Shown piece by piece: positions 14,098 to 34,414 of a stretch of 43,976 nucleotides of DNA (the stretch's first letter is position 1; every line of letters starts with the position of its first letter). Location of the stretch: IMG/VR virus record IMGVR_UViG_3300027849_000451, positions 1 through 43,976 of that record; one strand, written 5' to 3'. The stretch comes from a virus. The notes below the pieces were generated by a model. The model was given only the letters and a program-made list of their open reading frames with translations, was not told where the DNA came from and ran no database searches. A program made the translations under genes and the position numbers.

Positions 14098-14252
14098 GAC
14101 AACTTTGGCGCCTTTGGGCTAAAGCCATTGGCGAAAAGGAAGGAACAACTGACGCTGAAGCAGACAAGATAGCATTAATCAGAACAGTAATTGTATTAGT
14201 AAATTTCATCACATGCTTTGTTATTATTGCAGGGAACATACATAATTGGTAA
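14094..14252 (+). CDS. 52-residue single-span membrane protein
   Basis: ATG 14094 overlaps the preceding TGA (ATGA) and the TAA at 14250-14252 overlaps the next ATG (TAATG). The protein starts MRQLWRLWAKAIGEKEG, then a charged helix, then a hydrophobic stretch (TVIVLVNFITCFVIIAGNI, about 31-49) long enough to cross a membrane. The C-terminus is short and polar. I recall short proteins with this W-x-x-WAKA-[IL]-GEKE opening in marine T4-like phages. Function unknown; an inner-membrane location is inferred. It is easily missed because of its size. Confidence 0.75.
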   Translation: MRQLWRLWAKAIGEKEGTTDAEADKIALIRTVIVLVNFITCFVIIAGNIHNW

Positions 14253-15889
14253 TGAGTATATACGACCAAGCCGCAGATAAGGCAGAAAAACAACTAGACG
14301 CTATTAGCCCTACTATGTGTTATGCAAAGTGGAGCCAAGTGTCTATGCACTTAACTAATGGCACAACACATAGTTGCTATCACCCACCTACACATAAAAT
14401 TCCATTAGAAGAACTAGCAAAGAATGTTTCAGCATTACATAATACAGAAGAGAAGAAAGACCAACGCAGACAAATGCTTAAAGGCGAGAAGCCGGACGGT
14501 TGTAGTTATTGCTGGAACATAGAAGACACTGGCGCAAGAAGTGACCGGGTATATCGCAGTGGCGAGTACTGGGCACAGGACAGTAAAGAAGATATTATGG
14601 ATGCTGGTGCTAGTGGCAATATTAATCCACGTTATGTGGAAGTAAACTTTAATCAAGCATGTAACTTTAAGTGTAGTTATTGTTCACCGCATTTAAGTAC
14701 AGCATGGCAAGAAGAGATTGACGAGTTCGGCGAGTACCCAACTACAGCACCGCACAACAATGTAGAGAGTTTAGATCGTAAAGGGCTTATGCCACTTAAA
14801 CTTAGCCAAGATAACAATCCTTATGTTACAGCGTTTTGGAAGTGGTGGCCTGAGATGTATAAGACACTACGAGTATTTAGAATGACAGGCGGTGAGCCGT
14901 TAATGGATAAGAATACTTTTAAGGTACTAGACTATGTACTAGACAATCCTAATAAAGATTTAGAGTTAAGTATAACATCAAACATGTGTCCTGTCAACGA
15001 TGCATTGTTTGTAAAGTTTTTGAATGCAGTTAAGAAGATGGACAATGTACAGCATGGCGCTGAAGTATATGTAACAGATCCGCTCGACGGCACTGACTGG
15101 CAAACATGGCAACATTCTATTATAGGTGAGGACGCAAAGCGTTACCACAGCAGTGAGCTACCTGTAATTGAGCGTGAAGCAATACCGCAGACATTCCTGC
15201 AAGTTGGACAGTGTGAGGAACAAGATAACAATAGTTTCACATACATATACGAATACAACGACAAAGCATACCATAACTTTAGTGTGTTCTGTAGTCTAGA
15301 CGGCTGGGGTGAACAAGCGGAGTATATGCGTAGTGGCATGGACTTCGATACTGTTTGGAATAACTGTCACAGGTTTTTAGACGAAACACGATTCACAAGT
15401 ATCAATTTCATTAATACATTTAACTGTTTAAGTGTAACAAGTTTTAAAGAATTCTTACAAGGCATACTAGACCTTAGAGAAAAGTGGAGCAAAGAGGTTC
15501 AGTACTCGATGGGCTGGGAAGTTCCTGAACAACGTATATGGTTCGATGTTCCATTGCTCCGAGCTCCTGCTTGGCAAAGCATACAAGTATTGCCAGGGCA
15601 GTATCAAGAGTATATGCAAGAAGCAATACAGTTTATGGAACAAAATAAAGCCAACGAAGAGTATGTAGATTACAAAGGCTTTAAGGATTTTGAGATAGCA
15701 AAGGTAAAGCGAAACTTAGAGTTTATGAAAGCAGAGCTACCACATGATAAACTAATAAGAGACCGTGCAGACTTTTATAAGTTTTTTACAGAACATGACA
15801 GACGAAGAAATACAAATTACTTAGCAACGTTTCCAGAGATGCACGACTTCTGGTTTATGTGTGAGGAAGCAGAGGCATTGAATGGATAA
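14252..15889 (+). CDS. Radical SAM protein 1 with N-terminal twitch-like cysteine region
   Basis: A 545-residue protein starting at ATG 14252; an upstream TTG (14246) is less likely because ATG 14252 forms a tight TAATG junction. The radical SAM cluster motif is CNFKCSYC (C137, C141, C144), which ligates the 4Fe-4S cluster that cleaves SAM. FRMTGGEPLMD is the GGE SAM-binding motif. Before the core, residues ~13-90 contain a second set of cysteines (MCYAKW, THSCYHPP, CSYCWNIED) resembling a half-SPASM (twitch) auxiliary cluster, here N-terminal. A ~90-residue insertion after the GGE motif, starting near DPLDGTDWQTW, distinguishes it from the others. Reaction and substrate unknown. Close in type to the 18215 gene. 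Confidence 0.88.
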   Translation: MSIYDQAADKAEKQLDAISPTMCYAKWSQVSMHLTNGTTHSCYHPPTHKIPLEELAKNVSALHNTEEKKDQRRQMLKGEKPDGCSYCWNIEDTGARSDRVYRSGEYWAQDSKEDIMDAGASGNINPRYVEVNFNQACNFKCSYCSPHLSTAWQEEIDEFGEYPTTAPHNNVESLDRKGLMPLKLSQDNNPYVTAFWKWWPEMYKTLRVFRMTGGEPLMDKNTFKVLDYVLDNPNKDLELSITSNMCPVNDALFVKFLNAVKKMDNVQHGAEVYVTDPLDGTDWQTWQHSIIGEDAKRYHSSELPVIEREAIPQTFLQVGQCEEQDNNSFTYIYEYNDKAYHNFSVFCSLDGWGEQAEYMRSGMDFDTVWNNCHRFLDETRFTSINFINTFNCLSVTSFKEFLQGILDLREKWSKEVQYSMGWEVPEQRIWFDVPLLRAPAWQSIQVLPGQYQEYMQEAIQFMEQNKANEEYVDYKGFKDFEIAKVKRNLEFMKAELPHDKLIRDRADFYKFFTEHDRRRNTNYLATFPEMHDFWFMCEEAEALNG

Positions 15890-16456: not shown

Positions 16457-16492
16457 TATAACTATTCTATATAAACTATAACGGAGAAATAA

Positions 16493-17593
16493 ATGTACGA
16501 ATTTACGAGCGAAAGTGTTAGTACTGGACATCCAGACAAGATAGCAGACTTAATTTCAGACAAGGTTGCTACTTACTTACTAGACAAAAACGTCACTCAC
16601 AGAGCGGCAATTGAAACACTTGTAACTACCAACATGGTAACGTTGGCGGGCGAATATAAATCGGATAACTTTGACAAAGATGTAATTGAGAAGATTGTCA
16701 GAGATACTGTAAAAGATATTGGTTACGAGCAAGACGGCTTCCATTGGAATACGTTAAGAGTGTATAATGAATTACACGGACAATCGCCTGACATCGCGAT
16801 GGGCACAGACGACTTTGGTGCAGGTGACCAAGGTATCATGTTTGGTTACGCATGTAACGAGACACCTGTCCATATGCCAAGTGCAATCTATTACAGTCAT
16901 GCAATATTAAAGTATATCGAGTCACAGAGACGTACTGGTGCGGATTGGATTGGCCCAGACAGTAAAGCACAAGTAACAATGGAATACAGTGACATTAACA
17001 CACCTGTCAGAGTCAGTAGAGTAGTGTGCAGTAGTCAGCACACAGAGGAATTTTCGCTAGACGTTACAAGACAGACATTGAAGGAGTTAGTTAAAATAGC
17101 ACTTGGCGGTGCCGGTGCGCCTATTGATGACCAGACGGAATATTTAATTAACCCAACAGGCAAATTTGTTATTGGTGGGCCTGACGGCGATACAGGACTT
17201 ACAGGGCGTAAGATTATTGTAGACACATACGGTGGCTATGCCCCGCATGGCGGCGGTGCGTTCAGCGGCAAGGACTGTACTAAGGTAGACAGAAGTGCGG
17301 CTTACATGGCACGTTACTTGGCAAAGAATATTGTGGCAAGTGGTAAAGCAGACAACTGTACTGTGCAACTAAGTTATGCTATCGGTGTTAAAGAGCCTAC
17401 TAGTGTGTATGTATATGCTGACGGTGATGTACGAAATGATATTACAGCAGAGATTAGGGCATTAGTTGATCTAACGCCTAAAGGTATTATCGATAAGTTT
17501 AAACTATTCGAGTTAGACCTTAGCGAAACTACAAACTACGGACACTTTGGCAAAGAAAGTATGCCTTGGGAAAACGTAGATTTGTTTGAATAA
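16493..17593 (+). CDS. metK: S-adenosylmethionine synthetase
   Basis: A 366-residue protein, slightly shorter than bacterial MetK (~384). Clear family motifs: FTSESVSTGHPDKIADLISD (H13, D15, K16 at the active site), GAGDQGIMFGYA (109-120), and GGGAFSGKDCTKVDRSAAY from residue 253, the phosphate-binding loop and Lys region. The enzyme makes SAM from ATP and methionine in the cytoplasm. GGAG (16483-16486) precedes ATG. The leader contains TATATAAAC, possibly a host-type -10, but no late octamer. It is flanked by genes for radical SAM proteins and is in the same window as a methyltransferase, so it likely supplies SAM during infection. Catalytic motifs are intact, so it should be active. Confidence 0.96.
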   Translation: MYEFTSESVSTGHPDKIADLISDKVATYLLDKNVTHRAAIETLVTTNMVTLAGEYKSDNFDKDVIEKIVRDTVKDIGYEQDGFHWNTLRVYNELHGQSPDIAMGTDDFGAGDQGIMFGYACNETPVHMPSAIYYSHAILKYIESQRRTGADWIGPDSKAQVTMEYSDINTPVRVSRVVCSSQHTEEFSLDVTRQTLKELVKIALGGAGAPIDDQTEYLINPTGKFVIGGPDGDTGLTGRKIIVDTYGGYAPHGGGAFSGKDCTKVDRSAAYMARYLAKNIVASGKADNCTVQLSYAIGVKEPTSVYVYADGDVRNDITAEIRALVDLTPKGIIDKFKLFELDLSETTNYGHFGKESMPWENVDLFE

Positions 17594-17605
17594 ATAACAT
17601 AATAG

Positions 17606-17613
17606 AGTAAATA
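17606..17613 (+). promoter_or_regulatory. Possible late promoter AGTAAATA, 5 bases from ATG
   Basis: AGTAAATA followed by TACAC and ATG 17619 repeats the octamer-N5-ATG geometry, with changes at the first two positions. An overlapping alternative, AATAAATA at 17589-17596 on the metK stop codon, would give a short leader instead. One of the two may be real. Confidence 0.35.
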
Positions 17614-17618
17614 TACAC

Positions 17619-18215
17619 ATGCCACACATTAAAAAAATTGCTATAACTGGCCATACTAAAGGTATAGGTAAAGAACTCTGGAATCGATTAGAAGACAGAG
17701 GTTTCGAGCTTAAAGGCTTTAGCAGGTCAAATGGTTACAACTTACAAAAAGTAAGTACATGCAAAAAAGTTGTAAAGGAAGCAGTCGAATGGAACGCTGA
17801 TGTATTTGTAAATAATGCATACGTTCCAGATAACCAGGTACGGTTAATGTATTTGATGTATGAGCAATGGCAAGAGAAACCTAGACTAATAATTAATATG
17901 GGTGCTACTAGTAGCGACAGTATTACGAACTTTAGTCAAATGGGTTACAATGCAGACTGGACGCCATATGTAAGTGACAAGGCTAGATTGGATTGGGCCA
18001 GCTTACAGTTAGCCAATATGCATAAACAGGGAAAGTGTAGAGTGAGTTTAGTTAAGCCAGGGTTTGTCGACACCGACAGTACAGCAGTGTTTAAAGACTT
18101 CGCAGAGGACTTTATGATGACCGCTGATAGTGTTGCTGAACAGATCGAATGGCTAATAGACCTAAAAAGACATGTACAAGTAAGAAACATAAGTTTCGAC
18201 GTAGGGAATATGTAA
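17619..18215 (+). CDS. Short-chain dehydrogenase/reductase
   Basis: A 198-residue protein, somewhat short for classical SDRs (~250). IAITGHTKGIGKEL carries the TGxxxGIG dinucleotide-binding motif (10-17). VFVNNAY matches the NNA strand, and PYVSDKARL has the catalytic Y117-x3-K121 pair. VSLVKPGFVDTD is the usual PG motif after the active site. Redox of a hydroxyl/keto group with NAD(P)H is the expected reaction, possibly on a sugar or acyl intermediate. The start lies 25 bases after metK and the stop overlaps the next gene (TAATG). The compact size suggests loss of surface helices, as seen in phage enzymes. Confidence 0.85.
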   Translation: MPHIKKIAITGHTKGIGKELWNRLEDRGFELKGFSRSNGYNLQKVSTCKKVVKEAVEWNADVFVNNAYVPDNQVRLMYLMYEQWQEKPRLIINMGATSSDSITNFSQMGYNADWTPYVSDKARLDWASLQLANMHKQGKCRVSLVKPGFVDTDSTAVFKDFAEDFMMTADSVAEQIEWLIDLKRHVQVRNISFDVGNM

Positions 18216-19897
18216 TGGTTAGAAAAGTAGACGAAACACACAGAGAGTTCAAAGCCAGGAAGATAGATACTGTAAGTGATTCCTTCTGTGGAGCAAAGTG
18301 GTTTAACGCAACGATATGGTTGGGTCACGGTGGAACAACCAGTTGTCATCATCCCCCAGCACACCAAATAGATACAGAAGAGATTAAAACAAATCCGTCA
18401 GCTATTCATAACACACGGCATAAAAAGAAAATGCGTGATATGATGCAGAAAGGTGACCGTCCAAAAGAGTGTGAGTACTGTTGGAAGATAGAAGACATGG
18501 GCCAAGACTCAGATGGTAATGAGCCAGTGTCAGACAGAGTTTATAAGACAGTTATCTACGAAGACGATGACTTGGATCTTATTGCAACATTAGATCCGCA
18601 AGAAGATGTTAATTTGAAAACAATGGAAATTGCTTTTGATAGAACATGTCAACTTGCATGTAGTTATTGTAACCCAGCATTTAGTAGTACATGGGTTAAA
18701 GATATCAGAACTAACGGTGGCTATCAAGGCATTAAGTCAGATGCTCGTGGACACTTTATTGATGATGCTCCGTATGCCGAACCGTATGCACGTGGTGATG
18801 TTAATCCGTATGTTGATGCGTTTTGGAGATGGTGGCCTGAACTAAGTAAGGACTTAGAAGAGATTAGAGTTACAGGTGGTGAGCCACTAATGACTCCTGA
18901 GATTTATAAGTTGTTCGACTGGTTCAAAGAGTCTGATGATCCAAACAAACATAAAATGCGTTTGGCAATTAACAGTAACTTAATGGCTAAGCCAGCATTG
19001 CTCGATAGGTTTATTGATGCAACACAGCACATTGAACACTTCCATGTGTACACTAGTAATGAAGCCTTTGGGCCACAAGCAGAGTACATCAGGGACGGAC
19101 TAGAGTGGGACGTGTGGACAAAACAGTTTGAACGTTTTGCCAGTGAGGCAAGGTACGAAGGTGTACATTGTATGATGACTATTAATGCATTATGCCTAGA
19201 CACTATTACTGAGTTTTGGGATTGGGTACTAACAATGAAACGTAAGTACGGACATCATGTTCCAGGCATTAGTGTAAACATATTGCGTTTTCCTAGTTTC
19301 CAGAGTCCACTGACATTACCAGATCACTTGCGTAAGATGTACCATGATGAGATTAGCGATTGGTTAGATGCAGTTAGAGCCAAAGGCGAGAAATCAGATA
19401 TTACAGGTGCAGAACTATTGCAACCTTGGGAGCAAGATCAAATTAGCAGACTAATAGAATATTTGGATGTTGTTAAAACTCCACATAGGAATACTGCTGA
19501 ACAACACTTACTACATCACGACTTTAAAGTATTTTACGAACAGTATGATGCAAGACGTGGATTTAATTTTAAAGAAACATTCCCTCGTATGGCAGAATGG
19601 TATGACAGTATTGAAGTACTAGACATCAGCGATGACCACGATATACAAGCACCGGATAGTGTGGGTGTAACAAATACACTGTATGCTAAACGTATTGTTA
19701 CAGAGGACGGTGAAGTTAAAGTTGTAGAAATGAAAGTACGTGGACGTCAAACAGGCGAAAGCGACGATGACTATGACGATGAGAAATATAAAAACGATCC
19801 AGACTACAACCCAAATATCAAACGTAAATCAGGTAGTAGTATAGGTTGGGACACTGAGACAGATGGACTCGGTGGGGCAGTCGATGCCGCGGATTAA
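18215..19897 (+). CDS. Radical SAM protein 2 with N-terminal twitch-like region and acidic tail
   Basis: A 560-residue protein starting at ATG 18215, with AGGG shortly upstream; an upstream in-frame ATG (18149) would lie deep in the preceding gene. The cluster motif is CQLACSYC (C145, C149, C152) and the GGE motif is RVTGGEPLMT. The N-terminal cysteines (FCGAKW, TTSCHHPPAH, CEYCWKIED) mirror those of radical SAM 1, including the HPP segment, so these two form a subgroup. The last ~90 residues form an acidic, low-complexity tail (GESDDDYDDEKYKNDPDYN) absent from the other seven, perhaps a protein-docking element. Substrate unknown. Confidence 0.88.
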   Translation: MVRKVDETHREFKARKIDTVSDSFCGAKWFNATIWLGHGGTTSCHHPPAHQIDTEEIKTNPSAIHNTRHKKKMRDMMQKGDRPKECEYCWKIEDMGQDSDGNEPVSDRVYKTVIYEDDDLDLIATLDPQEDVNLKTMEIAFDRTCQLACSYCNPAFSSTWVKDIRTNGGYQGIKSDARGHFIDDAPYAEPYARGDVNPYVDAFWRWWPELSKDLEEIRVTGGEPLMTPEIYKLFDWFKESDDPNKHKMRLAINSNLMAKPALLDRFIDATQHIEHFHVYTSNEAFGPQAEYIRDGLEWDVWTKQFERFASEARYEGVHCMMTINALCLDTITEFWDWVLTMKRKYGHHVPGISVNILRFPSFQSPLTLPDHLRKMYHDEISDWLDAVRAKGEKSDITGAELLQPWEQDQISRLIEYLDVVKTPHRNTAEQHLLHHDFKVFYEQYDARRGFNFKETFPRMAEWYDSIEVLDISDDHDIQAPDSVGVTNTLYAKRIVTEDGEVKVVEMKVRGRQTGESDDDYDDEKYKNDPDYNPNIKRKSGSSIGWDTETDGLGGAVDAAD

Positions 19898-21299
19898 ACC
19901 TACATGGGAGCATGGAGCCATGCACCCAGATTCAGAGAACAAAGTTTTTTGTACAGCACCATGGACACATACATACATTTCACCTCAAAGTGAAAGACGT
20001 ATGTGTTGTGCTAGTAGGGAAGAACATCAGTTTCAAAAACAATACATCGATGCTAGTAATGACGAAAGCACAGGCAAGTTTAAGGAAAGCGGTACTATTG
20101 CAGACTACCAGCCTGTTAGTCTAAAAGAACATTGGAACAGTCCGTACATGATGGACATCCGCAAGAAACTAATGGCAGGTGAAGAGATTGCACAGTGTAA
20201 TGTGTGCAACGATAGTGTACTAAGTCAGAGTACATACCGTCAGTGGTTCACAGGATTCTTGTTTGAGAAATATATAGACAAATGCTTTGAGGAGACAGAC
20301 GATGACGGACGTACAACTATGGACCCTATCAGTTTTGATTATAGGGTTAGCAATTTGTGTAACTTTAAGTGCCGTATGTGCGGTGAGCAACTTAGCTCGG
20401 CATGGGAAACAGAGAAGCGGCAGAATGACCATTGGACGCCTGAGAGCCAACCATTCATGGTACCCGAGAACAAAGAGATCATCCAGAAGTTCCAGAAGGA
20501 TGTAGTAGAAGAAGAATTTTGGGAAGCCATTAAAGCAGGTACAGTAGAAGAAATATACTGGGTCGGCGGTGAGCCGTTGATGTATGATATACATTGGAAG
20601 AGCATGGCAAGGCTTGCCGAAGATGGCAATTTAAGTAAAGTACACTTACGTTACAACAGTAATTTAAGTAGAGTACGCTATGGTAAAAATTACTTATACG
20701 ATTGGTTACCACAAGCAAAGGACTGGACTATGTGTGCAAGTATTGACGGCATAGGTAGGATAGGCGAGTTCATACGCACAGGTCTAATATGGGACGAGTG
20801 GGATAAGAACTTTAGGGAAGGTGTAGCATGTCCAGGTGGCGACAGCAAGATGCTTATGGACCTAACACTAACAGGCCCTGGACTATTTGGCTTGCGTGAC
20901 TTTGTTAATTATTCGTTAGAGTTAAATGTTAAAATTGAAACTAAGAATATGTTTGCATTCCATCCAGATGTAGTATTTACATTTATGAGTTGGCCCAGAC
21001 ATATCCTAGACAGAATAGTAAACAGTTTGCTAGATGACTTACGTCCTATTGTAACTGAAAAGCAAAGCACAGTAATAACTCAACTAGAAGCAATTCTAAA
21101 TACTCCTACATTCGGTGAACAGTTTCCAGACACACATGAGGAACAATTCTTTAATGGCAGACAATGGCAACAGACTATTGCTACTATTAGGAACGATGGC
21201 GCCGAAGGCGAGGCACTAACTATAGAAGAAATTTATAAGGCAGACGAAGAACTATACAACTGGTATACCAGACCTGACCCGAAGCACAACAGTCGATGA
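19884..21299 (+). CDS. Radical SAM protein 3 with N-terminal twitch-like region
   Basis: A 471-residue protein if it starts at ATG 19884 (14-base overlap with the preceding gene, GGTGGGG upstream). ATG 19863 and ATG 19920 are alternatives. The N-terminal cysteine region is FCTAPWTH, RMCCAS and CNVCNDS; the core motif is CNFKCRMC (C159, C163, C166) and the SAM-binding motif YWVGGEPLMYD. The FC-x-x-PW start, then CC, then C-x-x-C arrangement is shared by radical SAM 4-8. A long C-terminus follows the core. It probably catalyses a SAM-radical modification of an unknown substrate. Confidence 0.87.
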   Translation: MPRIKPTWEHGAMHPDSENKVFCTAPWTHTYISPQSERRMCCASREEHQFQKQYIDASNDESTGKFKESGTIADYQPVSLKEHWNSPYMMDIRKKLMAGEEIAQCNVCNDSVLSQSTYRQWFTGFLFEKYIDKCFEETDDDGRTTMDPISFDYRVSNLCNFKCRMCGEQLSSAWETEKRQNDHWTPESQPFMVPENKEIIQKFQKDVVEEEFWEAIKAGTVEEIYWVGGEPLMYDIHWKSMARLAEDGNLSKVHLRYNSNLSRVRYGKNYLYDWLPQAKDWTMCASIDGIGRIGEFIRTGLIWDEWDKNFREGVACPGGDSKMLMDLTLTGPGLFGLRDFVNYSLELNVKIETKNMFAFHPDVVFTFMSWPRHILDRIVNSLLDDLRPIVTEKQSTVITQLEAILNTPTFGEQFPDTHEEQFFNGRQWQQTIATIRNDGAEGEALTIEEIYKADEELYNWYTRPDPKHNSR

Positions 21300-22636: not shown

Positions 22637-22677
22637 GAATCCTCAATCACAATCACAAATCGTTGATACATCTTAAT

Positions 22678-22685
22678 GATAAATA
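22678..22685 (+). promoter_or_regulatory. T4-like late promoter octamer GATAAATA ahead of a ~19 kb operon
   Basis: Exact GATAAATA in the longest gap of the window (22637-22736). Predicted +1 near 22691 gives a ~46-base leader with TTAGGAG (22724-22730) before ATG 22737. No later octamer was found in a gap until 42003. Confidence 0.65.
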
Positions 22686-22736
22686 TAAGAGTAGTTAACT
22701 CTACACACATTATTTAAATAAACTTAGGAGAACAAC

Positions 22737-24761: not shown

Positions 24762-25546
24762 CAGATCAAGAGATTTTAGATTACATTTTTAAAAAATGGG
24801 GCAAGCAAGAAGAGATGCGAGCCTTTAACGAACAGTATCGTTACACACCGCCTTACCCAACATTGCATGTTGAAGACTTTGTTCCGCCTCATGTAGCAAA
24901 AGCATTACACGAAGAAAGCAAGACTATACCTAAAGCATTTTGGACAACGTTCACTAGAGCTGACAGCTATATGGAAGAGTGCAATGACCTAGAAGAGGCG
25001 CCAGTTGCCAGAGCAGTAGTTAGTGCATTACACAGCAAGTCTTTCTTAACATGGTTAAGTAAAGTTTGTGACGTAGGTCATTTACTTCCTGATCCGTATC
25101 TTGTTGGTGCAGGGTATATGAAAAGTTATACAGGTGATAGTTTAAAAATACACACCGACTTTAATTGGAACGAGCAATGTCAAACACACAGAGCATTAAG
25201 TTTAATTTTATACTTTACACCTGAGTGGGACGAAGCATGGCACGGTGATTTACAATTTTGGGACTTCGAACGAACTGAAAAGATTGTAAGTTATCCACCT
25301 AAGATGGGCAACGTAGTAATTTGGAAGTATCACAAAAGAGGCTTCCATGGACACCCTAATCCAATTGCGTGTCCTGAAGATAGATTCAGAGCAGGCTTTA
25401 GATTATTTTACTATACTAGCGATAGTGTACATGATTGGAGAGATGCTCCACACAAAAGTTTATATTGGTATGACGGTGAGAAGAACCAGCCATATCACAT
25501 TGACGCAGAATACGGACACGGGAACTTAGATGCTAACGAAGATTAA
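24752..25546 (+). CDS. 2-oxoglutarate/Fe(II) oxygenase (prolyl-hydroxylase-like)
   Basis: A 264-residue protein. The facial triad is seen as KIHTDFNW (H134, D136) and the distal H199 in RGFHGHPNP; the 2-oxoglutarate-binding Arg is R217 in RAGFRLFYY. SLILYFTPEWDEAWHGDLQFWD fits the double-stranded beta-helix of P4H-like 2OG-FeII_Oxy enzymes. These hydroxylate or oxidatively modify peptides, sugars or lipids, releasing CO2 and succinate. Overlaps both neighbouring genes, so it is translated with them. It needs O2, whereas radical SAM enzymes are oxygen-sensitive; both in one operon is noteworthy. Confidence 0.86.
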   Translation: MVITDQEILDYIFKKWGKQEEMRAFNEQYRYTPPYPTLHVEDFVPPHVAKALHEESKTIPKAFWTTFTRADSYMEECNDLEEAPVARAVVSALHSKSFLTWLSKVCDVGHLLPDPYLVGAGYMKSYTGDSLKIHTDFNWNEQCQTHRALSLILYFTPEWDEAWHGDLQFWDFERTEKIVSYPPKMGNVVIWKYHKRGFHGHPNPIACPEDRFRAGFRLFYYTSDSVHDWRDAPHKSLYWYDGEKNQPYHIDAEYGHGNLDANED

Positions 25547-26534
25547 TGTTTGTAACAACGAACTAAACATACCTAGGTACGATAACCCGCTATTTTTACG
25601 ATGCGGTGAGAGTATCGATATCAGCGAAGTTGATGCCGCTGAGTTTAAAGGTGGGTATGCTTTACAAGATCCTCTGATAACATCTAAACTTATTGAGTAT
25701 TGCAGAAATGCTTTCCAAGATATATTTGTTGCAGATGGTAAACATAATATACAACAAGAATATAAAGAAGTATTCAGAGACTGGATTAACTCATCGAAAC
25801 TTAATCAGATTCATGGCTTAGATTTATTCCAGCATACAAGTATTACAAACGGTACCACAGAAGCATTCAGCATGTTTATGCAACGTCATAACAACAGACG
25901 TTTTAAGATTGCAAGAGGAGACTTTATGTTGCATAAGGTTGCTTGTAACTCGATGGATCTGGATTGGGAATGGTTGACAGAACATAATGCACTAGAGCCA
26001 GGTGATGCGTTAATTATTAGTTGCCCGTTCAGTGACACAGGCTGTAAACATCGCGAGATGGACGACTTGTTATTAACTGCATCAAGAATGGATGTGCCTG
26101 TATTAGTAGACATGGCGTACTTTGGTATGTGCGTTAACATAAATATAGACCTGACCCATAAGTGTATCGAAGAAGTAGTGTTTAGTTTAGGCAAGACGTT
26201 TCCTGTTATTGGTGCTAGAGCAGGCATTAGATTCCAAAAAGATGAGATAGATGATGCCGTAGTGTTTGCAAATCAGAACGGCATTGTTAATAACTTTGCA
26301 TGTAAGATAGGCGTGTTCTGTATGTTAAACTGGTCACCAGATTACATACCCCACAAGTATTATGATGCCTACTATGCTATGTGCTTACACAATGATTTAG
26401 AGGTAACTAACTGCGTTTTGTTTGCTACATCGCGAGATGCTAAATATTCAAGTATAAACAGAGGCAACAACAGCTCAAGACTGTGTGTCAGTAAATTTTT
26501 ATTAGAGAACTATAATGTCTACAAAGAAGAATAG
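25530..26534 (+). CDS. PLP-dependent aminotransferase-like protein
   Basis: A 334-residue protein with features of fold-type I aminotransferases. SITNGTTEAFSMF is the phosphate-binding turn, IISCPFSDTGCKHREMDDL matches the N-P-x-x-P-T-G-like region, VPVLVDMAYFGMC carries the Asp that pairs with the pyridine nitrogen (D194), and FSLGKTFPVIGARAGIRF carries the Schiff-base Lys (K222) followed by the G-x-R-x-G turn. It is short for the family (~380-400), with a reduced N-terminus. Likely transfers an amino group to a keto-sugar or related compound. Overlaps by 17 and 20 bases with its neighbours. Confidence 0.78.
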   Translation: MLTKINVCNNELNIPRYDNPLFLRCGESIDISEVDAAEFKGGYALQDPLITSKLIEYCRNAFQDIFVADGKHNIQQEYKEVFRDWINSSKLNQIHGLDLFQHTSITNGTTEAFSMFMQRHNNRRFKIARGDFMLHKVACNSMDLDWEWLTEHNALEPGDALIISCPFSDTGCKHREMDDLLLTASRMDVPVLVDMAYFGMCVNINIDLTHKCIEEVVFSLGKTFPVIGARAGIRFQKDEIDDAVVFANQNGIVNNFACKIGVFCMLNWSPDYIPHKYYDAYYAMCLHNDLEVTNCVLFATSRDAKYSSINRGNNSSRLCVSKFLLENYNVYKEE

Positions 26535-27930
26535 ATTCGGATTCGAATACAATGTCTGCGACACAAAGGAATTCTTTGATCCAGACTTTAAGTATTGCTC
26601 ATTGTTATGGAGCCATATTAGTAACGAGCCGGGCGGTACAGTAAGAACTTGCTGTATAGCAAAGGATAGAATTAAAGACGACCTGGGTAATGATTATAAC
26701 TTGGGCGAACACTCAATGCTTGAAATACTTAACAGTAACACAATGTTTGAAATGAGAAACAGAATACGTGACGGGCAAGACATACACAACTGTGAAACAT
26801 GTTGGGTAGACGAACGTAACGGCAAAGAGTCTAAAAGACAACAGTACAACAACTATTACAAAGAGTGGTACGGTGACGACTGCATTAACTTCCAAGATGA
26901 ACCGCATAGATTAATTGACGTACAGTTAATTTTTGATAACACTTGTAACTTAAAATGTAGAAGTTGTAATACAAACTACAGCAGTAAGTGGAGAGAAGAA
27001 TCCATAGACAGGAACATTCCGTTCTGGGAAACAACTGCTGAAATTAATATGAATGACATAGAGAGAAGTGCGTTCTGGAGGACCATGGATGAATGGACTG
27101 AAGGTGTAATGCGTATGGAGATTATGGGCGGTGAGCCGTTCTATATGAAAGAGTTTAAACAGTTCGTGGACTACTTAATTGAAACAGGTAGGTCAAAGAA
27201 TGTTGCACTAACATTAAGTACTAACGGTACTATTGCTGACAGGGACTTCTTAGCTAAGATGGTTGCCAACTTCAGAGACATAGCATTCAGTGTTAGCATC
27301 GACGGCATAGAAGATAAGTTTACATACTTAAGACATCCAGGCAAGTGGGACGTAGTAAAGGATAACTTAGACTACTATTACGAATTACACAACAGTGACA
27401 ACTCTGTATTCGTTCAGATAACGCACACGGTAACCGCACTAAATATAATGTACTTGCCAGAGTTCCATGAGTACTTCGAGACTACATATCCAAACTTTAA
27501 GATTTGGAATAATGCTGTACATTATCCTAAATGGATATCAGCGCCAGTACTCCCAGCAAAAGCAAAGAAGCTTATTACAGATAAGTTGCTACGACATAAT
27601 TGGTTATCTAAGTATAGAGACGAAGCCAATGCACTAGTAAATTTTATGAACTCGGCACTATATGAAAATGGCGATAGTGTAGTAGAAAGTTTAAAAGGAA
27701 AGTTTGATGCTGACAAGTTAAAGTTCTTTGATGAACGTAGCAGTCAGCAGAAGTGGACGATATTCAAATCTCAAATAGTGGGAGGAGATATATACAGGGA
27801 AGAAAACTTTGTAACAGTTTTCCCTGAACTGTATGACTTAATTAAACATGAGTTTGATTATGATGCAGAATTTGAAGCAGTGTCGACAGCAGGGTTCCTG
27901 CCAGTCAGTCAAGGGGAGTACAGCAATTGA
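26515..27930 (+). CDS. Radical SAM protein 4 with N-terminal twitch-like region
   Basis: A 471-residue protein beginning 20 bases inside the preceding gene. N-terminal cysteines are YCSLLWSH, RTCCIAKDR and CETCWVDE; the core is CNLKCRSC (C144, C148, C151), with SSKW after it as in other members. EIMGGEPFYM is the SAM-binding motif and VSIDGIEDKF is the later strand seen across the set. The stop TGA overlaps the TTG start of the next radical SAM gene, so the two are translationally coupled. Enzyme class is clear; the substrate is not. Confidence 0.9.
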   Translation: MSTKKNRFGFEYNVCDTKEFFDPDFKYCSLLWSHISNEPGGTVRTCCIAKDRIKDDLGNDYNLGEHSMLEILNSNTMFEMRNRIRDGQDIHNCETCWVDERNGKESKRQQYNNYYKEWYGDDCINFQDEPHRLIDVQLIFDNTCNLKCRSCNTNYSSKWREESIDRNIPFWETTAEINMNDIERSAFWRTMDEWTEGVMRMEIMGGEPFYMKEFKQFVDYLIETGRSKNVALTLSTNGTIADRDFLAKMVANFRDIAFSVSIDGIEDKFTYLRHPGKWDVVKDNLDYYYELHNSDNSVFVQITHTVTALNIMYLPEFHEYFETTYPNFKIWNNAVHYPKWISAPVLPAKAKKLITDKLLRHNWLSKYRDEANALVNFMNSALYENGDSVVESLKGKFDADKLKFFDERSSQQKWTIFKSQIVGGDIYREENFVTVFPELYDLIKHEFDYDAEFEAVSTAGFLPVSQGEYSN

Positions 27931-29171
27931 GTAATACATATTGCCCGCTACCTTGGAACCACTTAGCAACACACCCGCACGGTGGAGTTACACTATGTTG
28001 TATAAGTGACCATACTGATGGACTGAACCGAGCAAGGAATTTTAAAGAGGACTATAGTGAGTTCTTTGATTTAAATAAGCAGTCAGTTGAACAACACATG
28101 AACAGTGATTACTATAAAGAAGTTAGACTGCAAATGCTAAACGATGAAAAGCCAAAGGCTTGCATGAGGTGTTACGATGAAGAGGACAAAGGAATTAAGA
28201 GTAAGCGACAACACGAGGCCGAAGTATTTAAGCAGGGTTCCATTGATTGGGCATCCGAACTTACTAGTGCGGACGGGAGCATTCCTATGGATCTTCGTTT
28301 TGTTGAGCTTCGTCTTGGTAATGTGTGCAACGTTAGGTGTCGTACATGTAATCCTGCAAGTAGTTCTAAGTGGTTGGAAGACTATAAAGACATCGTGCAG
28401 AAGGCTGACTTCATCAACAAAGGATACCTAGGACTTAACTTCCCAGAAGATTTTAAGTGGGCAGAGGACGATAACTTCTATGATGAATTATTTGAAGCTT
28501 CACCTAACCTAGAACTATTATATATTAATGGCGGGGAGCCAACATTAATTAAACAACATTGGGCGTACTTACGAAAATTAGTTGACAGTGGCAGAAGCAA
28601 GAACGTTATACTATGGTATAATATTAATTGCACTATGCTACCACCTATTGCTTTAGAACTGTGGCCCGAGTTCAAAGAAGCAAGAATTTGTTTAAGCATT
28701 GATGACCTGGAAGACAGGAATGCTTTTATAAGAACAGGAACTAACTGGAATGCTGTATTAAAAACTATTGATACATTAAAGCAAAATCAAGACAAGTTAG
28801 TTCTACGAATAACACAAACTGTTAGTGCATATAATTATGCAACGTTGCCTGAATTCTTTAAATGGGCAGAGATGAATGGGATAGAGGTTGACATGAACTT
28901 CGTGTATGATCCTGATTACCTAAGTCCTGCGGTTATACCCGCTAAGGCTCGAGAGTTGATACATACAGAATTTAGAGAAGCATTAGGCAATGACCACAAA
29001 CTAGGAACCCTGTTGAGCATGTTTAACAACAGTGATTGGGATGAGTTAAAGTGGGAACAGTTTTGTCGTTATAACGATTTATTAGATAAGAATGATGAGA
29101 GTGACTGGAGACAGGCATTCGGTAAACTTGTAAACAAGGTAGAAGAAAGTGGATATACTAGCATTTACTAG
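27927..29171 (+). CDS. Radical SAM protein 5 with N-terminal twitch-like region (TTG start)
   Basis: A 414-residue protein from TTG 27927, which overlaps the previous TGA and has GGGGAG about 8 bases upstream. The N-terminus is YCPLPWNH, TLCCISDH and CMRCYDEEDKGIKSKR; the core is CNVRCRTC (C134, C138, C141) followed by SSSKW; the SAM motif is YINGGEPTLI. CLSIDDLEDRNAFIRTG is the strand-turn matching VSIDGIEDKF in radical SAM 4. This is among the more compact members of the set. It is followed by the desaturase-like gene with a 23-base overlap. Confidence 0.9.
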   Translation: MSNTYCPLPWNHLATHPHGGVTLCCISDHTDGLNRARNFKEDYSEFFDLNKQSVEQHMNSDYYKEVRLQMLNDEKPKACMRCYDEEDKGIKSKRQHEAEVFKQGSIDWASELTSADGSIPMDLRFVELRLGNVCNVRCRTCNPASSSKWLEDYKDIVQKADFINKGYLGLNFPEDFKWAEDDNFYDELFEASPNLELLYINGGEPTLIKQHWAYLRKLVDSGRSKNVILWYNINCTMLPPIALELWPEFKEARICLSIDDLEDRNAFIRTGTNWNAVLKTIDTLKQNQDKLVLRITQTVSAYNYATLPEFFKWAEMNGIEVDMNFVYDPDYLSPAVIPAKARELIHTEFREALGNDHKLGTLLSMFNNSDWDELKWEQFCRYNDLLDKNDESDWRQAFGKLVNKVEESGYTSIY

Positions 29172-29913
29172 ACCTAAACTCGTAGTGTTAAGATGCTTAA
29201 TGCATCTTGGACTGGCTACGGCTGTGGTACTAGGACCAAGCAACTACTTGTGGATATCACTTGTAGCATACTTTTGGTTTGCCAGTATAGGTAACAGTGT
29301 TGGACAGCACAGATACTTTGCACATAAGACATTTAAGACAAGCAAACTATGGGAACGTATTTTAATTGCTAGTGCTACACTGGCTAGTGTTAGTAGTGTG
29401 TTCGGATACATTGTAACCCATAGAGAACATCATAAGCACACAGACGATGGATTAGACCCCCACAGCCCGCACCATATGAGTACACTCCGTAGTTGGACAC
29501 TGGACTTAACTGATACAGGACGTTGGGACTTGCGTAATGCAAAAGACTGGATAAAGAACAAAGATGTAATGAATGCACACAAATACTTCTTTGCTTATAT
29601 ATTAATATATGTTATAATACTAGCACTCATTGATCCGATGTTAGTAGTGTATGGATATCTAGTACCAGCTAGTTTATGTGTATGGGCAACTGGTGCCTTC
29701 AACACATGGGGACATGGACACGGATTAAAGAGCCTGGGTTATAGGACTTGGGAAACAAAAGACAAAAGTGTTAATCATCATTTAGTTAACTTAATAACTT
29801 TCGGTGAAGGATGGCACAACAATCATCATAACAACCCTGGTGCATGGCATCAAGGTGAGAAGTGGTGGGAATGGGATTTAAACGCATGGATAATAAGATT
29901 AATAAAACAGTAG
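29149..29913 (+). CDS. Fatty-acid/acyl desaturase-like membrane protein (GTG start)
   Basis: A 254-residue protein starting at GTG 29149 inside the preceding gene. Three His boxes are intact: HRYFAH (54-59, HX4H), HREHH (91-95, HXXHH) and WHNNHH (H223, H226, H227), the di-iron ligands of membrane desaturases/hydroxylases. Hydrophobic segments near residues 15-50, 65-85, 145-185 fit four membrane spans. EGWHNNHHNNPGAW is typical of acyl-CoA desaturases of bacteria. Desaturation of host or pathway acyl chains is the likely reaction. It is set between radical SAM 5 and 6, with overlaps on both sides. Confidence 0.88.
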   Translation: MDILAFTRPKLVVLRCLMHLGLATAVVLGPSNYLWISLVAYFWFASIGNSVGQHRYFAHKTFKTSKLWERILIASATLASVSSVFGYIVTHREHHKHTDDGLDPHSPHHMSTLRSWTLDLTDTGRWDLRNAKDWIKNKDVMNAHKYFFAYILIYVIILALIDPMLVVYGYLVPASLCVWATGAFNTWGHGHGLKSLGYRTWETKDKSVNHHLVNLITFGEGWHNNHHNNPGAWHQGEKWWEWDLNAWIIRLIKQ

Positions 29914-31184
29914 AAGAAATAAAGAAGTTAGCAGAAGGTGAAGCGTTCTGTATCCTGCCGTGGATACACATGCACCCTTGGCCCGATGGCAGAGTGTTTA
30001 CATGTTGCTTGAGTGAGCATGACTCACCTATCGGTAACTTGAACGAGATGGACCTAGATGAATGTTACAACAGTGATAACATGAAGTCGTTTAGATTAGA
30101 CATGCTCGACAATAAGAAAGTATCTAACTGTAATAGATGTTATGAGCTAGAAGAAGTAGGACATGATACGTTGCGTAAGAGAAGCAACGATGAATTCATA
30201 TTTGAAAAGTACGGCTTACATGAAGACAAGTCGCCTATTGTACAAAAGACAAAACTGGACGGCAGTTTAGACGAAGTACATTTAACTTACATGGACATCC
30301 GGTTCAGTAATATATGTAACATGCGTTGTAGAACATGCGGTCCTGATTTAAGTAGTCAGTGGTTTGAAGAAGCAGTTGACAGCAAATTTAATAGAACTCC
30401 CGAACAAAAGATATTACAGATAAGAAAAGGTAATACTGCATTCATGGAACAGTTCGATCCGTACTTGCACACAGTAGAGAAAATTTATTGGGCAGGTGGT
30501 GAGCCATTGCTTATGGACGAGCATTGGTACATCATGAACAAGTTAGTTGAGATGGGTAGAACAGATGTACGAATATTTTACAACACTAACTTTAGTAAAC
30601 TAACATATAAGCAAGAAGATGCCGTTGAGCTTTGGAAGAAGTTTGAGCATGTTAGCATCGGTGCTAGTTTAGATGCAGGATGGGAGAAGGGCGAGTACTT
30701 GCGTAAGGGAACTATCTGGTCTGACACAATGGCAAACAGAGAACGCTTAAAGCAAGAACTACCACAACATGACTTTAACATCAGTTGTACTGTTAGTATA
30801 TTTAATGTGTTAGATGTATGCGACTTCTACAGGAAGTTATGCGATATAGAATTTATAGAACCAAAAGACTTTGGAGTTAACATCTTACTAGGTAAGCATG
30901 TACACAGAGCAACAGTATTGCCACTGCACATGAGACAGCGAGCAATAGAACAGATTAAAGAAACGTTAGCATGGATCGAAGGCAAAGACCAAGTAGGTCG
31001 TGCAACAGACACGTTCAACAGTTTACTACAGTTTATGGAAGGTGACGACAGCCACTTGCTATCAGACAGTATGCAGGAAGCAAAAGAGATGGACAGGTTC
31101 AGAGCAGAGACATTGTTTGAAGTGTTCCCTGAGCTGAGCGACATAAGTTCATACTACAATGAAGGTGAACCTTTTGGCGAATAG
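29886..31184 (+). CDS. Radical SAM protein 6 with N-terminal twitch-like region
   Basis: A 432-residue protein from ATG 29886 (28-base overlap with the desaturase gene); ATG 29862 would add 8 residues. N-terminal cysteines are FCILPWIH, TCCLSEH and CNRCYELEE. The core is CNMRCRTC (C144, C148, C151) followed by SSQW, and YWAGGEPLLM is the SAM-binding motif. The region after the core contains EKGEYLRKGTIW, matching the YLRHPGKW/FIRTGTNW block in other members. Enzyme class is clear; substrate unknown. Confidence 0.9.
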   Translation: MDNKINKTVEEIKKLAEGEAFCILPWIHMHPWPDGRVFTCCLSEHDSPIGNLNEMDLDECYNSDNMKSFRLDMLDNKKVSNCNRCYELEEVGHDTLRKRSNDEFIFEKYGLHEDKSPIVQKTKLDGSLDEVHLTYMDIRFSNICNMRCRTCGPDLSSQWFEEAVDSKFNRTPEQKILQIRKGNTAFMEQFDPYLHTVEKIYWAGGEPLLMDEHWYIMNKLVEMGRTDVRIFYNTNFSKLTYKQEDAVELWKKFEHVSIGASLDAGWEKGEYLRKGTIWSDTMANRERLKQELPQHDFNISCTVSIFNVLDVCDFYRKLCDIEFIEPKDFGVNILLGKHVHRATVLPLHMRQRAIEQIKETLAWIEGKDQVGRATDTFNSLLQFMEGDDSHLLSDSMQEAKEMDRFRAETLFEVFPELSDISSYYNEGEPFGE

Positions 31185-32400
31185 ACCAGAACATTTTTGT
31201 ATACTACCTTGGATAAACCAAGAAGCTCGTACTAACGGAGAGATAGGTGTGTGCTGTGTTATGCAGGAGACTGTACCAGACATGAACCTAGCAGATGGCG
31301 CCACACTTAAAGATGCCTGGGAAAGCAAATGGTTAGCAGACTTGAAGGGAGACTTCTTAGCAGGAGAGAAACCTAAGGCATGTTACAACTGCTGGAACGA
31401 AGAAGACGCAGGCATTGATAGTAAACGTTTACGAGAACTTAGAAAGTTTGCACACCACGTGGATAACTTGGAGCATGCCAAACCAAAGAGCATGGATTTA
31501 AAATTAGGAAACATTTGTAATACTAAGTGTAGAATATGTACAGGCTTTGCAAGTAGTCAGTGGGTGCCAGAAGAAATAGAACGTGACGGTGAGTCTAATC
31601 AGTTTGCACAACTGATGGGTAGGCTAGGACGTTGGCCCGAACTAAATGAAAAGTTCTGGGAAGACATAGAAAGTCAAATCGAAGAAGTAGAGAGTTTAGA
31701 ATTCTTTGGCGGTGAGCCGTTCTTAATTAAAAGACATTTCGATATACTACAGACATTAGCAGACAAGGGCAGAGCAAAGGATATAACATTAAGTTATAAT
31801 ACTAATGGTTCTATATACCCTGCACAACATATGGACTTACTTAAACAGTTTAAAGATGTGCAAGTGTTCTTTAGTATAGACGGCACAGGTGATAGGTTTA
31901 ATTATATTAGACACCCACAGCAGTTTGATGAAGTAATGGAAAACTATTGGAAGTTCAAAGCAACAGATTTTATTAGAACAAACATTTTTTATACAGTTAG
32001 TATATTTAATATTATGTATATGGATGAGTTACTAGAGTACCAAAAAGAACATAACATTGAAACTGAAATACATTTCAATATGGTATATGTTCCGCAACAC
32101 ATTAGTCCTAAAGCATTACCTAAGAAAGCCAAAGAAGCCGTTACAGCAAAGTTTAAAGACCATAGCGATCATAGAATACAAAGCACACTAAACTTTATGA
32201 ACCAGGAAGACTACACAGGCTACATGGATGAGTTTGTAAGACAGACTGCATTCAGTGATAGGTATAGAGACGAGAGTATTGCTAGTACCTTCCCTGAGTT
32301 ATACAAGTATGTTAGACCATGGTTCGAGAAAGAAGATGTAATGGCATTACAAGAACAAATGCAATTTTTAAAAGCAGGTAATAAACATGACAAGTTATAG
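31159..32400 (+). CDS. Radical SAM protein 7 with N-terminal twitch-like region
   Basis: A 413-residue protein, ATG 31159, 26-base overlap with the preceding gene. N-terminal cysteines: FCILPWIN, GVCCVMQE, CYNCWNEEDAGIDSKR. The core is CNTKCRIC (C120, C124, C127) followed by SSQW; EFFGGEPFLI is the SAM motif. FSIDGTGDRFNYIRHP is the strand-turn shared with radical SAM 4. MVYVPQHISPKALPKKAKE near the C-terminus matches FVYDPDYLSPAVIPAKARE of radical SAM 5, so these two are close relatives. Confidence 0.9.
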   Translation: MKVNLLANRPEHFCILPWINQEARTNGEIGVCCVMQETVPDMNLADGATLKDAWESKWLADLKGDFLAGEKPKACYNCWNEEDAGIDSKRLRELRKFAHHVDNLEHAKPKSMDLKLGNICNTKCRICTGFASSQWVPEEIERDGESNQFAQLMGRLGRWPELNEKFWEDIESQIEEVESLEFFGGEPFLIKRHFDILQTLADKGRAKDITLSYNTNGSIYPAQHMDLLKQFKDVQVFFSIDGTGDRFNYIRHPQQFDEVMENYWKFKATDFIRTNIFYTVSIFNIMYMDELLEYQKEHNIETEIHFNMVYVPQHISPKALPKKAKEAVTAKFKDHSDHRIQSTLNFMNQEDYTGYMDEFVRQTAFSDRYRDESIASTFPELYKYVRPWFEKEDVMALQEQMQFLKAGNKHDKL

Positions 32401-33688
32401 TAAAACATTCTGTCCTTATCCGTGGATACACATAATGACACAGCCTAGTAGTACTATTAATATATGTTGTGTTGCTACAGGTCAAATTAAAAAGGATGAC
32501 GGTAGCATACTAATGCTAAACAAGGGTGACGATATTTCTACAGTATGGAATAACAATCACTATCGTAAGATTAGAAAGCAAATGATAGAAGGCGAACGTG
32601 TCGATGGTTGCCAACCTTGCTACGAACTAGAGGACTTGGACATACCAAGTTACAGAGAGAACTACATTAAAGACTGGATGGGGTTCCACCGTAATGCAGA
32701 TCAAATAAAAGAAATAATAGACAAGAGTATTGTAAATGATTATGTTGTAGAAGAAGCACCACAGTACTTAGACTTTAGACTAGGAACACTATGTAACTTA
32801 AGATGTAGAATGTGCCAGAGTCAAAACAGCAGTGCAATCTACAAGGAGTTACAAGATGAAGAATTATACACCCAAGAAGAAAGACAGTTTGTCGTGGATA
32901 CAAGTCACTGGGGTGACTTTAGTGATTACACTCAGCCTTGGTTTGATGATCCTGGCTTCCTTTCAACAGTCGAAGAATGGTTGCCTAATGTCAATAGGCT
33001 ATACTTCACCGGCGGTGAGCCCACTATTATACAGCGAGTGTATTGGATCCTCAACAAGTGTATCGAACTCGGAATAGCAAAAGATATTGACTTAGTGTTT
33101 AACAGTAACATGACTAACATACAGCCTAGGTTCTTAGAAACCATAGGACAGTTTAGAGATGTATTAATGTGTTTAAGTGTAGACGGCTATGCTCAATACA
33201 ACGATTACATTAGAAGTGGAAGCACATGGAGTGTTATCGACAAGCACATCAGAGACTATGCTGATTCAGAAGTAGTGGGTAACATTTTGTTTAGTCCTGT
33301 TATACAAATATATAACATACTAAACATCACAGACTTACTTGACTATGCTGAAGAGATATCTAATGAGAGTGGACGTAGGATTGATATTAGTTTCTTATTA
33401 AACAACTATCCAAAGTGTTTAGACATTAGAAACTTACCACAGAACATACGTGACGTTGCTGTACAGAGATTAGAGTCTTGGTCAGCAACAAGCAAGTACT
33501 TTGATGCAGACGAACGTAACAAGCAGACTGTGTTAGGATTAATTAAAGCATTGAAAGAATCGTACAACGATGACAGTGAACAACAGATGGAAGTATTCAA
33601 ACAGTACACGTTACTACTTGACAGCAAACGTGACCAGAGTATTAAAGAAAGTATACCTGAACTATGGGAGTTGCTAGATTGGACGTAA
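32387..33688 (+). CDS. Radical SAM protein 8 with N-terminal twitch-like region
   Basis: A 433-residue protein, 14-base overlap with the preceding gene. N-terminal cysteines: FCPYPWIH, NICCVATG, CQPCYELED. The core is CNLRCRMC (C136, C140, C143) followed by SSAI rather than SS-x-W, a small departure from the other members. YFTGGEPTIIQ is the SAM motif and CLSVDGYAQYNDYIRSG the following strand-turn. It is the last of the five closely packed radical SAM genes in this operon, ahead of the SGNH-hydrolase-like gene. Confidence 0.9.
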   Translation: MTSYSKTFCPYPWIHIMTQPSSTINICCVATGQIKKDDGSILMLNKGDDISTVWNNNHYRKIRKQMIEGERVDGCQPCYELEDLDIPSYRENYIKDWMGFHRNADQIKEIIDKSIVNDYVVEEAPQYLDFRLGTLCNLRCRMCQSQNSSAIYKELQDEELYTQEERQFVVDTSHWGDFSDYTQPWFDDPGFLSTVEEWLPNVNRLYFTGGEPTIIQRVYWILNKCIELGIAKDIDLVFNSNMTNIQPRFLETIGQFRDVLMCLSVDGYAQYNDYIRSGSTWSVIDKHIRDYADSEVVGNILFSPVIQIYNILNITDLLDYAEEISNESGRRIDISFLLNNYPKCLDIRNLPQNIRDVAVQRLESWSATSKYFDADERNKQTVLGLIKALKESYNDDSEQQMEVFKQYTLLLDSKRDQSIKESIPELWELLDWT

Positions 33689-34413: not shown

Positions 34414-34414
34414 A

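Follow-up and report, generated by a model that had tools for sequence, protein, structure and literature searches.

Why would a phage maintain eight radical S-adenosylmethionine (SAM) enzymes side by side? The question is raised by IMG/VR virus record IMGVR_UViG_3300027849_000451, a stretch of 43,976 bases classed as linear, the whole of which is referred to here as the window. Between positions 14,252 and 33,688 it carries eight radical SAM genes, named rA to rH in this study (Table 1). Radical SAM enzymes do difficult chemistry, and a lineage that keeps eight of them under strong selection must gain something from them. In this study, we show that all eight belong to one family with an N-terminal twitch domain and that all eight are under strong purifying selection. 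Compared by sequence with the genes of related phages, they are an old, maintained set of different enzymes. We tentatively propose that this set tailors a glycan linked to host recognition.

All eight frames are present and complete where the first-pass annotation, made from the DNA letters, had placed them, and the overlaps of 4-28 bases that it described agree with the coordinates. The list of open reading frames gives slightly earlier starts for four of them (14246, 18149, 19863 and 29862 for 14252, 18215, 19884 and 29886), and for rB the start at 18215 is favoured because many orthologues can be aligned only from about residue 18-22. A hidden Markov model (HMM) search placed every copy above the curated cut-off of 170 bits of NCBIfam NF033640, the N-terminal-twitch radical SAM family (N_Twi_rSAM), with 289-364 bits and E < 1e-85, which bears out the earlier assignment to twitch-type radical SAM enzymes. 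The Pfam Radical_SAM cut-off was reached by six copies, and Pfam SPASM (PF13186) was found in four, where the matches sit at the N-terminus. The motifs on which that assignment had been based, CxxxCxxC, GGE and an extra set of N-terminal cysteines, are found in all eight: their alignment holds C14, C33, C75 and C78 in the N-terminal part, followed by CxxxCxxC, GGEP and the kept residues N216, S239 and R251. Conservation was then read across the wider family, for which 663 HMM matches were filtered to 610 (complete frame, at least 330 amino acids, at least 100 bits) and reduced to 426 distinct proteins. The three core cysteines, both glycines, C14, C32 (the second N-terminal site, numbered C33 in the eight-gene alignment), C75 and R251 are invariant among these 426, C78 is kept in 425 and the GGE glutamate in 423, a conservation that partly follows from the selection of the proteins by score. 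The catalytic and auxiliary cysteines are intact in all eight window copies. A viperin-type antiviral role was considered and rejected, since NF038283 scores 19-37 bits in seven copies and does not match rB, with a cut-off of 180.

The position of the twitch domain was examined by profile comparison. Positions 40-105 of a profile of the eight match the C-terminal twitch of BtrN (residues 184-260 of 270, E 9e-5), and a wider radical SAM profile also matches the BtrN twitch (E 4e-4); since an N-terminal part of the profile matches a C-terminal part of BtrN, the domain order is the reverse of that in BtrN. Among PDB sequences, the wider profile matches 8vpo best (E 4e-11), an entry that carries no functional name. 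Structure prediction, which the first-pass annotation had suggested for the N-terminal cysteine region, was run on rG with 46 of 90 representatives and gave a confident model (predicted local distance difference test, pLDDT, 93.3; predicted template modelling score, pTM, 0.90). The predicted core is a radical SAM fold: in a comparison that covers listed radical SAM families, it matches anSME, BlsE and viperin with Z 11.8, and SkfB, MoaA and DesII with Z 10.8-11.3. It is here that a peptide substrate first comes into view. The enzymes may modify peptides as SPASM/twitch maturases do, with the virion proteins of the neighbouring tail or a small peptide of ribosomal origin as substrate; the folds matched in this comparison and by Foldseek include anSME, SkfB, SuiB and the sactipeptide enzyme 5wgg, and the NCBIfam search returned many weak matches of the eight to peptide-maturase models. 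We regard this alternative as doubtful while taking it seriously, and return to it below with the small protein of the locus.

To the first-pass annotation the genes had looked like an amplified set, a term that suggests recent duplication, and this does not hold. The eight are 21-35% identical in pairwise local alignments, and the rA-rC pair gives no BLAST match at all. The closest pair is rA and rB, which share 35% identity across roughly half of each protein and are sisters among the eight in the tree, in agreement with the subgroup that had been set apart by its HPP segments. Each copy is far closer to its counterpart in other phages: in the nearest phage with all eight, the orthologues are 87-97% identical. 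In a FastTree phylogeny of 240 cluster representatives, each window copy falls in its own clade, with support of 92-100 for five copies, 57 for rF and 56 for rG, and none given for rH. All eight types are present, by best hit, in 18 of 19 related contigs, three of which carry one further copy; the remaining contig breaks off within rB. These 19 contigs are those common to two relative searches, one of them made with rB, and some of the loci give the same rows (L083 and L084; L086, L088 and L106), such that the 19 contigs amount to about 16 different ones and the 29 array loci discussed below to about 25. Low identity, together with the finding that every copy has its own orthologue in other phages, therefore rules out recent amplification; the types had separated before the related phages diverged. 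Measured against the nearest relative holding all eight, the ratio of nonsynonymous to synonymous substitution rates (omega) is 0.037-0.057 in every copy.

It is possible to ask whether the copies merely hitch-hike, redundant and with no role in common, because many copies also occur in bacteria of one phylum. A search of a bacterial genome collection with rB, which reaches close relatives only, gave one match, an 83.9-kb Bacteriovoracaceae contig with eight family genes, and of 290 genomes from the same phylum as that assembly, 94 hold at least one copy above the cut-off; at most six candidates were scored per genome, and copy numbers are lower bounds. Bacterial runs lie on mixed strands, with five genes in one locus (L366, 2569-9974) and seven in another (L368, 5235-15017), and among 20 hand-picked neighbours a family 2 glycosyltransferase (GT2) and a DegT aminotransferase were seen in some loci and housekeeping genes in others, so that the bacterial neighbours pointed to no clear function. 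Because both the family and its runs are common in this phylum, runs of N-twitch radical SAM genes are not a phage invention as such. Nevertheless, one orthologue per type in 18 of 19 contigs, a conserved gene order and omega of about 0.05 in all eight make idle hitch-hiking very improbable. The genes travel as a set and do not look like unrelated transfers.

Relatives exist among viral contigs and, more distantly, in Vibrio phages. For rB there are 456 relatives in viral contigs and no match in 50,697 phage records; rG matches 39 Vibrio phage records at 21-24% identity, including KVP40 and its kin, and rF matches three phage records. Vibrio phage K566 (OZ196521.1) carries five family genes in 17.4 kb (19995-37392), two of them above the NF033640 cut-off; the record annotates four of the five as radical SAM domain-containing and the fifth as hypothetical.

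What the set might act upon was approached through its company. The claim that the genes lie in tandem stands as far as linkage and overlap go, although the run is interrupted by four genes, including metK and a short-chain dehydrogenase/reductase (SDR), between rA and rB, by five between rC and rD, and by a desaturase between rE and rF. In the related contigs, the kept order is tail-fibre-like gene, GTa, GTb, o13093, rA, rB, rC, UDP-sugar dehydrogenase, rD to rH, small protein, carbamoyltransferase and the 1731-amino-acid protein, not every member being seen in each contig. The block GTa-GTb-o13093-rA-rB is found in 66 of 69 loci having both GTa and rB, and the order str2, tail-fibre-like gene, GTa, GTb, o13093, rA in all nine records read, which were hand-picked. 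The UDP-sugar dehydrogenase is present in 27 of 29 array loci, the other two of which start inside rE, and the carbamoyltransferase in 28 of 29, the exception being cut by a contig end. More distantly, five records of 207-354 kb (G045-G049) hold the rA, rB, rC, rF and rG types by best hit only, two of them with an extra copy. By contrast with the kept order, metK, the SDR, the methyltransferase, the oxygenase, the aminotransferase and the desaturase are variably present among array contigs.

Table 1. Features of the window (positions in bases; NF033640 cut-off 170 bits; omega measured against the nearest relative holding all eight copies).
Feature	Position	Strand	Evidence and remarks
Virion structural protein, kin of jumbo-phage proteins	46..4224	+	phrog_10938 'virion structural protein', E 6e-65
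Tail-fibre-like protein	4915..6903	+	phrog_19602 'tail fiber protein', E 1e-10; three better phrogs without function label
GTa, glycosyltransferase-like (inferred label)	9104..9988	+	DxD-type motif; 24% identical to GTb, E 1e-13; conserved position
GTb, glycosyltransferase-like (inferred label)	11558..12454	+	Paralogue of GTa; conserved position
o13093, GT-A-type fold by model	13093..14097	+	D64/D66 motif; directly before rA; model pLDDT 87
rA, N-twitch radical SAM, HPP subgroup	14252..15889	+	NF033640 329 bits; omega 0.055
metK, SAM synthetase, accessory	16493..17593	+	TIGR01034 428.5 bits
rB, N-twitch radical SAM, HPP subgroup	18215..19897	+	NF033640 320 bits; omega 0.037
rC, N-twitch radical SAM	19884..21299	+	NF033640 292 bits; SPASM PF13186 at residues 30-116 of the 19863 frame; omega 0.042
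UDP-glucose/GDP-mannose dehydrogenase family (UDP-sugar dehydrogenase)	22737..24032	+	PF00984, PF03721
Methyltransferase-like, accessory	24033..24761	+	PF08003
2-oxoglutarate-Fe(II) (2OG-Fe(II)) oxygenase, accessory	24752..25546	+	PF13640
Class I/II aminotransferase family, accessory	25530..26534	+	PF00155
rD, N-twitch radical SAM	26515..27930	+	NF033640 289 bits; SPASM match; omega 0.057
rE, N-twitch radical SAM	27927..29171	+	NF033640 351.5 bits; SPASM match; omega 0.054
Fatty acid desaturase family, accessory	29149..29913	+	PF00487
rF, N-twitch radical SAM	29886..31184	+	NF033640 364 bits; SPASM match; omega 0.049
rG, N-twitch radical SAM	31159..32400	+	NF033640 345 bits; model pLDDT 93.3, pTM 0.90; omega 0.052
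rH, N-twitch radical SAM	32387..33688	+	NF033640 338 bits; omega 0.045
DUF6071 protein	33664..34413	+	PF19547
Small protein, 72 amino acids, variable N-terminus, conserved C-terminus	34415..34633	+	Ends IRKNDPFIYR; no PHROG match
Carbamoyltransferase, NodU/Nol kind	34630..36198	+	PF16861, PF02543; phrog_1601 'Nol-like carbamoyltransferase'
Protein of 1731 amino acids	36490..41685	+	15 copies of [FYVM][WY]x[VI]D motif, spacing about 100 amino acids; no Pfam match

Within this company, o13093 bears on a sugar product. Its model, made from the window copy and 34 of 64 orthologues, has a predicted GT-A-type fold; D64 and D66 are invariant in 35 sequences, and in a second structure comparison most of the 50 rows are glycosyltransferases or nucleotidyltransferases (Z 7.7-9.2). 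The 1731-amino-acid protein contains a related motif 15 times, and across 254 alignment columns its C-terminal unit shares 29.5% identity with o13093. We infer a glycan pathway from the GT-A-type model of o13093 and this related unit, which is the longest step that we take in this study. A linked, co-inherited and non-redundant set does have the look of a multi-step pathway, as the first-pass annotation had suggested; that the enzymes would take successive steps on one product goes beyond what linkage and co-inheritance indicate.

Some of the neighbours suggest a different kind of pathway. A desaturase, an SDR, a methyltransferase and metK lie nearby, an Fe-S carrier gene accompanies the array in 4 of 12 records, and a similar gene set was read in 2017 as Fe-S metabolism (PMC5332604, in the passage that describes it); these would fit a lipid, cofactor or other small-molecule pathway serving host metabolism during infection. 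However, many radical SAM arrays lack the desaturase, SDR, metK and methyltransferase, and a fixed place beside tail-fibre-like genes is not required for such a role, so that auxiliary metabolism seems to us rather improbable. Two candidate partners were set aside on similar grounds. A plausible helper here, metK is not tied to radical SAM genes overall as a general SAM supplier, and the Fe-S carrier is no constant partner. Separately, metK is widespread in phages, with 443 relatives in viral contigs.

Radical SAM steps also occur in phage base hypermodification, a pathway expected to need a dUMP hydroxymethylase and a base kinase, and the set could in principle make hypermodified bases that protect phage DNA. 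Neither enzyme is among the matches of the window genes searched, which are part of the genes of a fragment, and a place beside tail-fibre-like genes does not suggest a DNA role; we give this explanation very little credence.

A number of observations count against the proposal that the set tailors a glycan. Firstly, GTa and GTb have no match in the Pfam search, and o13093 is weak in Foldseek (best E 1.3e-3, a fucosyltransferase), has Z of about 9, only modestly above the chance level of the tool, and as a profile matches no PDB sequence. Secondly, among the best fold matches of the rG model are peptide-acting as well as sugar and nucleotide enzymes, and the modelled fold does not decide the substrate. 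Thirdly, the company varies. The UDP-sugar dehydrogenase did not appear in those parts of the distant five-type arrays that were read; distant arrays vary in copy number by best hit, one (G034) with four rB-like and another (G045) with two rG-like copies, and G034 has no rH among its best hits. The metK gene is not core, being found in 3 of 12 records searched, and N-twitch radical SAM genes were found in 5 of 80 phage metK loci (80 of 443 were fetched, many of them short); likewise, the nearest long record lacks the Fe-S carrier gene (PF01521). Some bacterial runs of the family adjoin housekeeping genes. Lastly, with respect to selection, synonymous divergence (dS) approaches saturation in rC and rD, and most omega values against two more distant relatives were not computable.

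The small protein and the carbamoyltransferase that follow the array bear on both the peptide and the glycan readings. The 72-amino-acid protein at first looked like a strong candidate for the precursor of a ribosomally synthesised and post-translationally modified peptide (RiPP); in a wider scan it proved to be linked more to the carbamoyltransferase than to the radical SAM genes, and this candidate was set aside. A pattern scan of viral contigs for the small-protein motif gave at least 120 stretches, and the wider count reached 121 matches, at least three of them chance frames (L271 (+), L277 and L293 (-)). In the loci examined, exactly one residue follows the motif in 54 of 55 distinct matches. 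Among the matches listed, a carbamoyltransferase is present in 80 of the 86 with at least 1.5 kb downstream; where both flanks are present (53 loci), 48 have a carbamoyltransferase and 20 an N-twitch radical SAM gene within the stretch, genes beyond the examined stretch escaping the latter count. The small protein therefore belongs with the carbamoyltransferase more than with the radical SAM genes. Moreover, in 27 of 29 loci with a carbamoyltransferase and without a family radical SAM gene, there was no frame with CxxxCxxC and GGE either. These counts, made for this one small protein, speak against a peptide product, and it would be uncommon for a single peptide to require eight different maturases. 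In its favour, a small protein with a conserved C-terminus does sit in the module, and the adjoining tail-fibre-like and structural genes encode Ser/Thr-rich proteins (S+T 0.22 and 0.28).

As for the small protein itself, it may act as a subunit or as a carrier, or it may be a substrate, and it is possible that the two genes form an undescribed two-gene unit. Many viral contigs have a DPFIY[K/R] protein immediately ahead of the carbamoyltransferase, whether or not N-twitch radical SAM genes are present. Nine stretches of the phage collection (L211 and L334-L341), of which eight surround carbamoyltransferase matches, gave no DPFIY-type peptide; a BLAST search with the peptide gave no match, which is uninformative as the query is of low complexity and the filter was on. 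For the carbamoyltransferase, the NodU equivalog model gives 142 bits, below its cut-off of 1000.

Under the glycan proposal that we tentatively favour, each enzyme would bind a [4Fe-4S] cluster at CxxxCxxC and one auxiliary cluster in the N-terminal twitch, would make the 5'-deoxyadenosyl radical by cleaving SAM, and would change its own position or bond in a glycan attached to a nucleotide or a lipid, one enzyme per step. Candidate changes are dehydrogenation, deoxygenation, epimerisation, and C-C or C-S bond formation. The glycosyltransferase-like enzymes would assemble the glycan, and carbamoylation would finish it, in this phage perhaps together with methylation, hydroxylation and amination. 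The product may go onto the phage tail or remodel the host surface, and either way it would affect host recognition. The fuller statement, that eight non-redundant enzymes build a carbamoylated glycan of new chemistry, placed on the tail of the phage itself or on the host envelope, and so set host recognition, is in our opinion unlikely. If it were true, the locus would be a conserved biosynthetic module of a jumbo-phage clade without a close cultured member in the phage collection searched, and a tail or host-surface glycan would tie unusual sugar chemistry directly to host range.

The window is probably part of the genome of an uncultured jumbo-type phage. The virion structural protein at its start matches 57 phage records, at 24-29% identity among the best 30 of 57, the best rows being PA5oct-type jumbo phages (28-29%), with weaker matches to the RaK2, 121Q and Atu_ph07 types. 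The jumbo size of the phage is inferred from its nearest long relative among the matches listed, of 339,794 bases with nine family genes in the array, in a survey of 50 records hand-picked from array loci. Also in the window are a paralogous pair of genes (10175-11431 and 21296-22636; 30% identical, with no assigned function and recurrent in array contigs) and, at its end, an incomplete frame (42540-43976) that we take, from the look of its sequence and with no search made, to resemble a CHASE2-type sensor with a cyclase domain.

It remains to place the set among known systems. BtrN, BlsE and DesII are radical SAM enzymes acting on sugar-type substrates, and the set resembles them through the BtrN twitch match and, on the core, BlsE (Z 11.8) and DesII (Z 10.8); it differs in that the twitch is C-terminal in BtrN and N-terminal in the window enzymes, and the resemblance is otherwise at the level of the fold. 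The peptide-acting anSME, SkfB, SuiB and 5wgg share the radical SAM core as well (Z 10.3-11.8), with a SPASM/twitch domain that is C-terminal. For the window set, no precursor tied to the radical SAM genes was found in the scan of the conserved small protein, other small frames not having been screened. The family NF033640, for which all eight qualify, carries no function in its name.

With regard to phages, the earlier statement that no system of this shape had been described was too strong. The T4-like marine virus TARA_ERS488813_N000010 (183 kb) has 12 radical SAM genes (PMC5332604) and is like the window in carrying many such genes; it differs in being T4-like, and the passage that describes it does not give the family, order or orthology of the 12. 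The host-recognition cluster of pelagimyophages holds tail fibres and glycosyltransferases, in some phages with radical SAM cassettes, and usually lipopolysaccharide-type genes such as UDP-glucose 6-dehydrogenase, and freshwater pelagimyophages lack the cassettes, according to a 2020 paper (PMC7029224). The window is similar in its place beside tail fibres with glycosyltransferases (9 of 9 records), a placement that goes back to one weak tail-fibre match and to a glycosyltransferase identity by model for o13093 only. In contrast to the pelagimyophage cluster, described there as hypervariable and non-syntenic (PMC7029224), the order and the eight types of the window are conserved. The radical SAM-like genes of the cultured Pelagibacter phage Mosig (MT647606.1) lie outside the family, as the family search matches nothing in that genome; in Mosig (L341), a cluster near VrlC combines aminotransferase, methyltransferase and carbamoyltransferase genes with others annotated as molybdenum cofactor enzymes. 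Viral genes with radical SAM domains have also been reported as auxiliary genes (PMC7150976, PMC9301287). In the open PMC literature, no phage paper was found by title under 'twitch domain-containing radical SAM', and among the papers listed neither the eight-type module, its place beside tail-fibre-like genes nor the five-type core was found described. Phages with many radical SAM genes, and radical SAM cassettes, are thus already in print, and the conserved eight-type module is what we did not find described there. A further comparison is that with Vibrio phage K566, whose radical SAM proteins are of the same family as the window set, but only 23-24% identical to rF and rG, and whose stretch, unlike the window, shows no annotated carbamoyltransferase; these five distant family members could make the question of what such enzymes do testable.

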